Part shown: positions 60,110-64,000 of the stretch, in pieces
Numbering within the stretch: position 1 is the stretch's first letter
Layout: every line of letters begins with the position of its first letter
Program-made: the position numbers and the translations under genes
The notes under the pieces: model-generated
Database searches by the model: none
Seen by the model: the letters and a program-made list of their open reading frames with translations, nothing else
Told to the model about the DNA's origin: nothing
DNA from: Acidobacteriota bacterium
GTDB lineage: Bacteria > Acidobacteriota > Holophagae > Acanthopleuribacterales > Acanthopleuribacteraceae
Assembly: GCA_020439745.1 (NCBI GenBank)
Contig: JAGQSC010000003.1
Location: forward strand, 186,001 to 250,000
Direction: 5' to 3'
Length of the DNA stretch: 64,000 nt

Positions 60110-60838
60110 ATGTTTGCTGTACTTGGGAATTGGAAGTCTTTTGGCAGTAACCGATGTGTCGATGATTTTTATCAAGCTCTGACCATTCACCAGCACAAGT
60201 CGACTCAGTGGGGTATCGCTTTTCCTTATCCGTACTGCCAAGCCGCGTCCACAAAACGTCAAGGATGGGTAGGCGCGCAGAACGTGAGTGCCTTTGGTGA
60301 AGGCGCCTATACAGGCGAAATTCATGCAGCGATGTTAACAGACTGCGGTTGCCAATTCGCCCTGGTAGGACATTCCGAAAGAAGACAGTATTTCAACGAG
60401 CCATCCTCACAATTGGTGGACAAAATCAACGCCCTACATGAGGCAGGTTTGACCGCTGTCTACTGCATTGGTGAAACGTTGGAGCAACGAGACGCTGGCC
60501 AACTGATGCAAGTCCTCCAGGACCAGCTGCGCGTGTTAGACGGATTATCCAATCCTGAACAACTTTGGGTGGCCTACGAACCTGTGTGGGCCATTGGTAC
60601 AGGCCGCGCAGCCACCCCTCAGGATGCTCAGGATGCGCATACGATAATTCGAAATGCCCTAAAGGGCAGCCCATTTCACCATGTGCCGATCTTATATGGA
60701 GGTAGTGTGAAGCCGGAAAACGCGGCGGCGTTGGCGCGCGAGACAGAGGTTGGCGGGTTCTTGATCGGAGGAGCCAGCTTAAAAGCCGACTCCTTCTCCG
60801 AAATCTACCTTCAATTCACCCAAACGAAATCCTCCTAG
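60110..60838 (+). CDS. tpiA: Triosephosphate isomerase
   Basis: 242 residues; interconverts dihydroxyacetone phosphate and glyceraldehyde 3-phosphate. It shows the N-terminal GNWK with Lys9, the electrophile His88 in VGHSERR, the catalytic Glu157 in AYEPVWAIGTG and the phosphate-binding YGGSVKPEN and GGASL. GGAGGG precedes the ATG and pgk ends one base upstream. The 3' end overlaps the opposing pseudokinase gene by four bases. Confidence 0.97.
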   Translation: MFAVLGNWKSFGSNRCVDDFYQALTIHQHKSTQWGIAFPYPYCQAASTKRQGWVGAQNVSAFGEGAYTGEIHAAMLTDCGCQFALVGHSERRQYFNEPSSQLVDKINALHEAGLTAVYCIGETLEQRDAGQLMQVLQDQLRVLDGLSNPEQLWVAYEPVWAIGTGRAATPQDAQDAHTIIRNALKGSPFHHVPILYGGSVKPENAAALARETEVGGFLIGGASLKADSFSEIYLQFTQTKSS

Positions 60839-63800
60839 ATGTTGGCAGCTCGCACACAGCGAAAGCCAATCTCGGGGGAACAGGTACGGGGGTCCGCCTT
60901 AAAACGCTTGAAAACCGTGATGTCGCGGCCACGACTTTTGTAGGAACCACCGCGATTGACTTTGGGACCTTTTCCTTCAAAAACCGGGTCCACCTGACCT
61001 TTCGAGTCGGCGTAAAACGACAAAGAAAAGTTATCCTGAACCCACTCGCTCACGTTGCCCAGAATCTCATAGACGCCGTACTGATTGGCGGGGAACGAAC
61101 CCACCTCAGCGGTGCGTTTGGGCGGGTAATACTCGTAAACAGCTTTCTTGGCGTCTGACGAAATACCCCACCAGTATTTCTGGTCATTGGTCCCACCAGC
61201 CGCGGCCAGTTCCCATTCAGCTTCGGTCGGTAGCCGCTTCCCTTTCCATTTGGCATAGGCCGACGCAGCATACCAACTTACATAGCGAACAGGGTGCTTT
61301 TCATCGCCCGCACGTGGGGCACCGTTTTCCCAATGACGCAAATAGTTCCCGTCATGTTTGTCATCCGAGATCGTACCCGGTCGCCACTGTGGATTGGCAT
61401 CCACAAATGCTTTGAATTCCCCGTTCGTGACTTCCGTGGTGTCCATAAAAAACGAGCTAACTGTGACGTCTCGTCGCGGACGGGAATCCAAGTCTGGTGA
61501 ATAGCCCATCTGAAAACGAACCCCAGGAATCAGGCACATGCCTGCGGGCGGTGAGAACCCTTCGTATTGGCGCCACAGTTCGTAAGCGCTGGTTTCGCCC
61601 CTGATCTCGTAGATCTCTTTGTAAATGCGCGCTGCTTCCTTGAACCGGCCCAACTCTTTCTTCTCGTTGGCTTTTTGCTTGAGGCCATTAATGTAATCGG
61701 TCACCCGGATCAATGCGGCATTCGCTACGGCACTACCAGGATCCATATCACCGAGCTTGGATGCAGCCGCATACATGGCTGGATAGTCCTCATTAACTTG
61801 CGCGTCGTCCAACTGGTCGGTGGTTTTTTCTATGGTGAACTTGAAGTTTTCTTCTTCCAGAACTTTGAGGTCTTCAGCGATCTTGCGATTGTTCTTATCG
61901 AAGATCAGACAGTAGTTCAAATAACGCACCGCCTTGTCGTATTCCTGGCGAGCCCGCGCATCGATGGCAATGTTGGTATAGGTGTCCACCAGGATGGGTC
62001 GATTTTCCTTGATGAAATCGGAATTGGGTTCAATGTCCAAGAGCTCGCCGAACTTGGCTGGAACAGCATCGTATTCTCGATTGCTCAGGAGTTGATTGAT
62101 CTCGGTTTTCAGGGTCCCCGATTTTTCGGCCACCAAGCGCTTACGCAGGTCAGAAAAGCGCTTGCTCACATCGTTATCGCCCGGAAGTGCTTTGCTCAGT
62201 GCATCTAGCAGGCGAAGGGCCTCAACCTCTGAACCAGACTCTTGCAGCTGGTTGGCCCGAGTCACTTGACCTTGTTTGATCTCGGCTATGGCTTTCGTGG
62301 CAATTTCATTGCCTGGATCAAGTTCTACGATACGCACATAGGTACCCAGGGCATCGTTCGTACCATCCATGAGCAACATGTCCTGGCGCTCAAAATCCAT
62401 GGCCCGATTCACCAAAGACGCAACTTGCTCAGCGGTTTGTTTCTCTGATTTCTCAATCTGATCATTGAGCTGGCTGTATTGAGAACGCAACTTGCTGGGT
62501 AGTCCGGCTTCGAGCGAGTGAAGCTGTGTTTTCGCGTCCGCCAAGTGGTTGTCCCGTACTTTGGCTCTTACCTCGTCTAGTGCTTTTGCAAACCGAGCAT
62601 TGATCTGTCGATTGCGCCAAGAGAGCCCACCAAAGACCGCCGCCAACAAGACCACGACAACCGTGGCGTAGAGCCAGCGTCGGTCAGCGCGCCGAACCGT
62701 GACGGTTCGTGCGGCCGGTGCGTAGTCAGCTGCTTCCAAGCTATCGGCCAAGCCTTCTCGAGCTCGGCGAACCTCTGGCATCGCCTCTACTTCCTCTTCG
62801 AAGGCAAACGCGCCATCTTCAGATTCGAAGGCAAATCCACCCCCGTGATCCTGATGGGTTTCATCGGAAACCGTCGCAGCCTGATCAAGCTCGAAACTCT
62901 TCGCAGAACTGTCAAAAGCGAAGTCAGCTGGAGGACCAGAACCCACTTCATTGGGGTTGGCTATCGTTTCGCTTTCCTCGAATGAGGTGGGTTGAAAACC
63001 GCCGATGTTGGCACCGAGATCGGTTCCCAAGTCTCCAAATGCCGTCTCCGATTCCAAACTGCCGAAGTCAAATCCGCCGCCCGGGCTTGGACTTGAGTCG
63101 GGTAGATCAAAGGAGGCTTGGGGTTGTGCAGGTTTGCTTTCGGCCAGTTCTTTGTCGAAGTCTTGTTCCCAGTCTGCCAGTCCGGAATCATCGCCAAAAG
63201 AAAAATCGGATGGAGTCGCCTGGGGTTCCGCGGGCATCTGGAACATATCGGGCGATATGTTTTCGTCTCGCACCGTGGCAGCACCCATCATGTCAGCATC
63301 TGGTTCCTTGGGCAAATCAAAACTCATATCCATATCGGCGCCACCGATATTGAACGCCGAACCAGATGCATCCGAATCCATTACCATGGGCGATGAGCCA
63401 TCCATCCCGGCGATTTCACCAAAACCCTTGACGAAATCGTCCTGGAACAATTCCGACCGTCGCATGTTCTCTACTTTTTCCAGTTCCTTGTAGAACTCAA
63501 GAGCCGTTTGGAAACGGTCTTCTGGACGTTTTGACAAGGCTTTCATCACAGCGTCAGACACACCTTGCGGCAATGCGGGAACGGCGATTCTAGGATCGTC
63601 CACCATGTCTTGAGAATGCGACATCTCCAACTCAAAGATCGAATTGGCACTAAAAGGCGGTTTGCCGGTGATCATTTCAAACAGAATCCCACCCAATGCA
63701 TAGATGTTGGTGCGAATATCCGTTGATTCGGGGTAGTTAAAGCGTTCCGGTGGAAAGTAGCGAGCATATGCCACGCGTTCTTTGTCGTTCAGACGTCGTT

Positions 63801-64000
63801 CCAGTTCCCGCTGCAAAATGGCGCCAAACCCCATGATCTTGGCGTCGCCATCGGGAGTGATCAGAATACTCTGGGGCGAGACGAGCACATGCACGAATCC
63901 TTCGTTATGGGCATAGCCGAATCCGCGTAAGATATCTTTGAAAATGCGAATCACGCCGTCCAACGCCAGCTTGCCGCCTTGACTGGCCAGCATACTTGCC
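60835..64000 (-). CDS. Membrane protein with pseudokinase and formylglycine-generating-enzyme-like domain (N-terminus outside window)
   Basis: About 1,055 residues are visible; the N-lobe lies beyond the right edge. Residues 1-175 are a kinase C-lobe with degenerate catalytic motifs: the HRDLKPxN loop reads HVLVSPQS, and the DFG position reads MGFG, so the catalytic Asp, Lys, Asn and metal-binding Asp are all gone. Residues 180-435 are an acidic linker with repeated FxF units (FSFG, FDFG, FAFD, FAFE). A single membrane helix follows (about 440-459), then TPR-like helices to about 800, then an FGE-sulfatase/SUMF1 domain (FQMGYSPDLDSRPRRDVTVS, LPTEAEWELAAAG, GNVSEWVQD, NRGGSYKSRGRD, IGFRCVRAANI). 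It overlaps tpiA by four bases. Confidence 0.85.
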   Translation of the reverse strand, partial: ASMLASQGGKLALDGVIRIFKDILRGFGYAHNEGFVHVLVSPQSILITPDGDAKIMGFGAILQRELERRLNDKERVAYARYFPPERFNYPESTDIRTNIYALGGILFEMITGKPPFSANSIFELEMSHSQDMVDDPRIAVPALPQGVSDAVMKALSKRPEDRFQTALEFYKELEKVENMRRSELFQDDFVKGFGEIAGMDGSSPMVMDSDASGSAFNIGGADMDMSFDLPKEPDADMMGAATVRDENISPDMFQMPAEPQATPSDFSFGDDSGLADWEQDFDKELAESKPAQPQASFDLPDSSPSPGGGFDFGSLESETAFGDLGTDLGANIGGFQPTSFEESETIANPNEVGSGPPADFAFDSSAKSFELDQAATVSDETHQDHGGGFAFESEDGAFAFEEEVEAMPEVRRAREGLADSLEAADYAPAARTVTVRRADRRWLYATVVVVLLAAVFGGLSWRNRQINARFAKALDEVRAKVRDNHLADAKTQLHSLEAGLPSKLRSQYSQLNDQIEKSEKQTAEQVASLVNRAMDFERQDMLLMDGTNDALGTYVRIVELDPGNEIATKAIAEIKQGQVTRANQLQESGSEVEALRLLDALSKALPGDNDVSKRFSDLRKRLVAEKSGTLKTEINQLLSNREYDAVPAKFGELLDIEPNSDFIKENRPILVDTYTNIAIDARARQEYDKAVRYLNYCLIFDKNNRKIAEDLKVLEEENFKFTIEKTTDQLDDAQVNEDYPAMYAAASKLGDMDPGSAVANAALIRVTDYINGLKQKANEKKELGRFKEAARIYKEIYEIRGETSAYELWRQYEGFSPPAGMCLIPGVRFQMGYSPDLDSRPRRDVTVSSFFMDTTEVTNGEFKAFVDANPQWRPGTISDDKHDGNYLRHWENGAPRAGDEKHPVRYVSWYAASAYAKWKGKRLPTEAEWELAAAGGTNDQKYWWGISSDAKKAVYEYYPPKRTAEVGSFPANQYGVYEILGNVSEWVQDNFSLSFYADSKGQVDPVFEGKGPKVNRGGSYKSRGRDITVFKRFKADPRTCSPEIGFRCVRAANI

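Follow-up and report, generated by a model that had tools for sequence, protein, structure and literature searches.

What does a protein kinase fold do in a membrane protein once its catalytic residues are gone? The question arises at the end of the window, the 64-kb stretch of DNA from a member of the Acanthopleuribacteraceae (Acidobacteriota) that was analyzed here (G000:C27:186001-250000, G000 being the source genome). An earlier note, made from this DNA alone, had described a minus-strand open reading frame (ORF) running from 60835 beyond 64000, with HVLVSPQS as catalytic loop and GFG at the metal site, and translation and alignment bear this out. The full gene runs 281 nt past the window end to a likely ATG at contig position 250281, which gives a protein of 1148 aa with the N-terminus MIGATIDQYKV; were an alternative TTG the start, the protein would be 9 aa longer. 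The chain comprises, in this order, a Hanks-type pseudokinase, an acidic linker, one transmembrane (TM) helix, a tetratricopeptide repeat (TPR) solenoid, and a domain resembling the formylglycine-generating enzyme (FGE).

The Pkinase profile covers the whole N-terminal domain, and among solved structures its nearest matches are ordinary PknB/StkP-type kinases (Table 1). Alignment of the N-lobe, which lies outside the window, to PknB puts GENAVS in the glycine loop and FVLE at VAIK, with Glu in place of the β3 Lys, and the αC Glu has become Asp. In the C-lobe, HRDxKxxN corresponds to HVLVSPQS and DFG to GFG, and Asn replaces the αF Asp. The glycine loop and Lys, which the earlier note had proposed to look for past position 64000, are thus both absent, and the source-genome protein is missing all three of the β3 Lys, the HRD Asp, and the DFG Asp. 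Judged by its sequence, the kinase part is dead in both lobes and devoid of the residues needed for phosphorylation, which extends the note's diagnosis to the N-lobe.

The comparison set consisted of seven Acanthopleuribacteraceae genomes from five genera (G000–G006), each of which encodes one full-length, single-copy orthologue of 1148–1636 aa with an uninterrupted frame; in a scan of genome contigs for the gene, a metagenome-assembled genome of the same genus was the only match. The HRD Asp is absent from all seven orthologues (HVL, HVL, HFA, HRF, HHF, HRF, and HRF), the longer HRDxKxxN motif reading HVLVSPQS, HFALNLDA, HRFLNPSN, or HHFLQPKK, and the glycine loop is degenerate throughout. 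At the β3 position the residues are E/E/H/K/K/K/K, with Lys gone from three orthologues and kept in G003–G006, and the DFG Asp is gone from six, DFG being retained only in G004. Around the active-site motifs the His of HRD and the Phe of DFG are the sole invariant residues, and in three orthologues GFG is directly preceded by a Trp, whose bulky side chain is expected to point towards the nucleotide pocket. Neither of the two outcomes that the note had named as fatal to its reading, an assembly error or orthologues with intact HRD and DFG, occurred. Assembly or sequencing error as the cause of motif loss is ruled out by the agreement of the seven genomes and by the 66 of 70 source-genome kinases that keep K, D, and D. 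The four exceptions are pseudokinases, among them the protein described here; with 66 of 70 kinases intact, the kinome is therefore not generally decaying.

The dead kinase domain is clearly under strong purifying selection. In the family alignment 43 of its 278 columns are invariant, and within a genus its identity is 76% vs 56% for the linker and ectodomain. Between G005 and G006, dN is 0.10 and dS 1.53 (dN/dS 0.066), and the FGE-like domain gives a dN/dS of 0.059, both ratios being rough because dS is near saturation. A pseudogene is ruled out by this selection together with the uninterrupted frame in all genomes.

At the other end of the protein, the FGE-sulfatase profile (Table 1) upholds the fold that the earlier note had named, and a PDB search aligns the domain with true FGEs, SUMF1, pFGE/SUMF2, TvpA, and PorK. 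The AlphaFold2 (AF2) model of this domain is poor, as only two sequences were usable, and the fold assignment rests on sequence. It also matches the GldK/PorK family (NCBIfam TIGR03525; 99.5 bits, 2.5e-28), at a score that does not reach the equivalog cut-off of 350 bits. The head is 58–73% identical among orthologues, and both Cys of the copper-binding pair (CHxSYC region) are absent in all seven. This check of the Cys residues, which the note had suggested, corrects its assignment: by the defining residues the C-terminal domain is a pseudo-FGE, which would leave no evident enzyme at either end of the protein. True FGE activity is ruled out by the missing Cys pair, and a head that is conserved yet lacks these Cys fits binding rather than oxidation. 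Three further FGE-like proteins are encoded in the source genome, one of them fused to an intact kinase (549 aa, L061/L172).

Between membrane and head, AF2 predicts a 15-helix solenoid (ectodomain residues 1–351, pLDDT mostly 75–93) for which Foldseek ranks TPR superhelices highest, at E about 1e-5 and with low TM-scores; Pfam TPR matches stay below cut-off. Hydropathy confirms the single membrane helix reported earlier. Because there is one TM helix with a basic stretch before it, the sequence suggests an N-in topology with the TPR/FGE-like part in the periplasm.

The linker is about as long and as acidic as the note had stated (249–264 aa, net charge about -41, rich in D, A, S, G, and F), and its at least five FxF units are all present. 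They modestly exceed expectation in the source-genome protein (5 observed vs 1.85 expected in shuffles of its own linker, P = 0.027), and the linkers of G001 and G002 hold four each (P 0.033 and 0.084). In G003–G006 the motif is strongly amplified, with 13, 28, 21, and 18 copies vs 5–7 expected; the 13 of G003 give P 0.0005, and none of 20000 shuffles reached the counts of G004–G006. FxFG occurs 25 times in the G004 linker vs 1.35 expected. A genome-wide pattern scan of G003–G006 showed in-frame tandem FxFG clusters to be essentially confined to the pseudokinase/FGE-like gene; what else matched was either isolated or a simple DNA repeat. The last unit, DG[ASN]FxF, is invariant in all seven orthologues and lies 43–74 residues ahead of the TM helix. 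The strongest argument for the importance of the motif is that one copy is fixed while the repeat number varies, and the earlier view of a repeated docking peptide gains from both the amplification and the invariant unit, while docking itself is putative. A literature search on FxFG linkers in bacteria returned nothing relevant. Two repeats were also recorded in these genomes: a 48-bp tandem DNA repeat (TTTGGTTTTGGGGTCC...) common to G006:C23:76080-76425 and C70:190917-191262, and a short-period repeat of ~1 kb at G005:C54:756005-757023, whose complement would encode an acidic AESE/EVEAE-type protein repeat.

The source genome encodes a sister pseudokinase of 1389 aa (L074:2270-6436; G000:C27:99269-103435, minus) that consists of the pseudokinase (HFQLKPSD, NYG), TPRs, a TM helix, a TPR ectodomain, and a C2 domain (PF00168, 1.9e-12). 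With E at or below 1e-5, the ectodomain profile recovered this C2-type family in all but one of the seven genomes, and a direct search found it in all seven and in none of 86 other genomes of the class. The FGE-type and C2-type ectodomains are collinear over 327 columns (hhalign E 7e-19, probability 99%), scores that TPR repeats can inflate; because they are collinear and follow the same N-terminal pseudokinase, we regard them as homologous. In a FastTree phylogeny of kinase domains the two types each form a clade, not joined to one another and with long branches. The TPR ectodomain profile had no match in 394 other Acidobacteriota, with the top candidates per genome scored. A third pseudokinase of 705 aa (L076:901-3015; G000:C10:163900-166014, minus) likewise occurs in all seven family genomes. 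Its HRD is HGL, HAL, or HGF, and the DFG Asp is lost in all; YSPTTFNLAFFMHSAFR is conserved after the kinase fold, and a TM helix, a coiled coil, and a TonB-C-like end (PF03544, 20.2 bits, under the 24.6 cut-off) complete the protein. It is possibly an energy-transducer with a kinase-fold cytoplasmic part. A fourth source-genome pseudokinase (L075:1260-6428, G000:C8, 1723 aa) has the layout kinase fold (HYQLNPNA, DLN), AAA_16, GAF, and SpoIIE, which resembles the CP1 type.

The pseudokinase/FGE-like protein is probably a lineage-specific, single-pass, non-catalytic receptor or scaffold of the inner membrane, perhaps acting with its C2 paralogue, and the sensing or scaffolding role that the earlier note had derived from a dead kinase would be sensible. 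The proposal builds on what was observed: the architecture, the family-wide loss of catalytic residues, purifying selection, the conserved juxtamembrane motif, and the ectodomain common with the paralogue. For topology, partner binding, oligomerisation, and each functional step we infer the following. The TPR solenoid and FGE-like head would extend through the periplasm, where the partner they bind could be an envelope component, a ligand, or the C2-type sister, and this binding might determine how the chain oligomerises across the membrane. In the cytoplasm the kinase-fold domain, without normal ATP binding, could present a protein-binding surface, e.g., to one of the ~66 active Hanks kinases, and the acidic FxF/FxFG linker would tether a cytoplasmic partner in a flexible, multivalent way, its conserved core being the DGxFxF unit next to the membrane. 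EssB/YukC and MviN, membrane pseudokinases that scaffold, are precedents for the principle according to a 2025 review (PMC12599244). A bolder version, which we consider unlikely, is that the family relies on three co-conserved transmembrane pseudokinases with FGE-like, C2, and TonB-C-like heads, and that the two sharing the TPR ectodomain could pair as a kinase-dead heteroreceptor in which the FxFG-rich linker of one, much like an FG-nucleoporin, forms a multivalent hub at the membrane. Several points weigh against the receptor or scaffold proposal. The FxF enrichment is only marginal in the source-genome protein; the AF2 model of the pseudokinase domain (pLDDT 43) was not used; gene neighbors are shared by just two genome pairs, G000 with G001 and G005 with G006, and in no case beyond the genus, so that synteny yields no partner; and with the β3 Lys kept in G003–G006 and DFG in G004, some orthologues may bind nucleotide, and atypical catalysis of the SelO or SidJ kind may be compatible with the sequence.

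Such catalysis would mean that the active site has been repurposed for another enzymatic activity, e.g., AMPylation or glutamylation, for which SelO and SidJ are precedents among bacterial pseudokinases (PMC12599244) and which the β3 Lys of four of the seven orthologues would suit. We consider this improbable, since there is no invariant polar residue set around the active site, every orthologue has a degenerate glycine loop, and the Trp before GFG in three of them is expected to face the nucleotide pocket. That the protein is instead a former kinase-FGE fusion drifting to loss, with the kinase part as a functionless relic, seems highly improbable: motifs that are degenerate and differ between genera would agree with decay, but the gene is intact and single-copy in every genome of five genera, and purifying selection on the kinase domain (dN/dS 0.066 at dS 1.5; 43/278 invariant columns) largely refutes it.

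A weightier alternative, though still a doubtful one, is a structural or assembly factor of the cell envelope, comparable to PorK/GldK, the FGE-like component of the type 9 secretion ring; the pseudokinase would then be a cytoplasmic anchor and not a signaling part. The GldK/PorK match (2.5e-28, well under the cut-off; PDB 9mzu 8e-15), the TPR solenoid, and the co-conserved TonB-C-like pseudokinase point in this direction, as does EssB/YukC, whose pseudokinase is the anchor of a secretion machine (PMC12599244). However, the domain fits the FGE family in general better, at 2e-53 in Pfam and 4e-26 for actual FGEs, and no secretion or motility genes were recognized adjoining the gene in the genomes examined, where most neighbors are unannotated.

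Table 1. Features of the pseudokinase/FGE-like gene, in window positions
Feature	Position	Strand	Basis
Pseudokinase/FGE-like membrane protein gene, 3' 3166 nt	60835..64000	-	ORF list and sequence beyond window end
Pseudokinase domain, aa ~95-272 (C-lobe and hinge; N-lobe aa 1-94 outside window)	63466..64000	-	Pfam PF00069 4.6e-26; PDB PknB-type kinases, best E 9e-34
HRDxKxxN position, HVLVSPQS (aa 131-138); catalytic Asp, Lys, Asn absent	63868..63891	-	Kinase alignment
DFG position, GFG (aa 151-153)	63823..63831	-	Kinase alignment
Acidic disordered-type linker, aa 276-524; 5 FxF units (aa 360, 404, 454, 483, 492)	62710..63456	-	Sequence composition, orthologue comparison
Juxtamembrane motif DGAFAF (aa 489-494); DG[ASN]FxF invariant in 7/7 orthologues	62800..62817	-	Orthologue comparison
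Single transmembrane helix, aa 537-556, VRRADRR before it	62614..62673	-	Hydropathy
TPR-type alpha-solenoid, aa 557-907, probably extracytoplasmic; homologous and collinear with that of C2-type paralogue	61561..62613	-	AF2, Foldseek, hhalign E 7e-19
FGE-like (SUMF1/C-type-lectin fold) domain, aa 913-1144	60850..61545	-	Pfam PF03781 2.3e-53; PDB FGE/SUMF1/pFGE/TvpA/PorK
FGE copper-binding CxxxxC position, SYKSRGRDIT; both Cys absent in 7/7 orthologues	60916..60945	-	PDB and orthologue alignment

The convergent neighbor of the gene in the window is tpiA-like; its stop ends at 60838, which leaves an overlap of 4 nt. Only in G001, an 860-aa gene weakly similar to these pseudokinase proteins (L034:11762-14341, minus) lies convergent and directly beside the orthologue.

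SUMF2/pFGE, TvpA, and PorK/GldK use the FGE-like fold for binding or structure, not for FGE chemistry. They match the FGE-like domain described here (PDB 1y4j, 2y3c, 9mzu) but, unlike this protein, have no attached kinase fold. Among kinases, the closest by sequence are receptor kinases of the PknB/PrkC type (4eqm, PknB, StkP), which have the same layout of kinase, linker, TM helix, and ectodomain; they are active and carry PASTA ectodomains, whereas the present protein carries TPR and FGE-like domains. Fusions of a kinase with a DUF323/FGE-like (NirV) domain in one chain have been known since 2005, e.g., in a chlamydial kinase (PMC1262709), and the earlier note too had called kinase/FGE fusions known; the 549-aa fusion of the source genome is a further example, which keeps its kinase motifs, lacks FxFG, and is too short for a TPR arm.

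Most bacterial pseudokinases have received little study, and only seven families consisting wholly or largely of them are counted in the 2025 review, from which the following comparisons are also drawn (PMC12599244). EssB/YukC of the type VIIb secretion system is likewise a single-pass protein with a cytoplasmic kinase fold, the three catalytic motifs lost, and a non-catalytic scaffold role; it is a Firmicutes secretion component without FGE-like head, TPR ectodomain, or FxF linker, and no secretion locus was recognized near the present gene. The pseudokinase domain of MviN (ActPs3, Mycobacterium tuberculosis) is also membrane-anchored and recruits a partner, but this actinobacterial transmembrane protein of peptidoglycan synthesis has a deleted activation loop and a tail phosphorylated by PknB. 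The families described are ActPs1-3, GLW, DLHK, CP1, and DYD: GLW proteins have that motif for HRD, CP1 has a COG3899 ATPase partner and no TM helix, and ActPs2 and DYD have Arg for the β3 Lys. Compared by published descriptions, and with DLHK only coarsely, these features are not those of the present family, which has HVL/HFA/HRF/HHF for HRD, E/H/K at β3, TPR and FGE-like domains, and one TM helix; the parts of the review that were consulted list no family with this combination, and its text mentions neither FGE, TPR, nor Acidobacteria. The clade has dozens of active Hanks kinases; its dead members bear unusual ectodomains and one bears an amplified FxFG linker. Since the family has cultured members, Acanthopleuribacter pedis and Sulfidibacter corallicola (PMC8841776), the role of a non-phosphorylating kinase fold in a kinase-rich bacterium is directly testable. 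Transmembrane pseudokinases and kinase-FGE-like fusions are already known; what is new is a separate, family-wide, single-copy set of such pseudokinases in the Acanthopleuribacteraceae.

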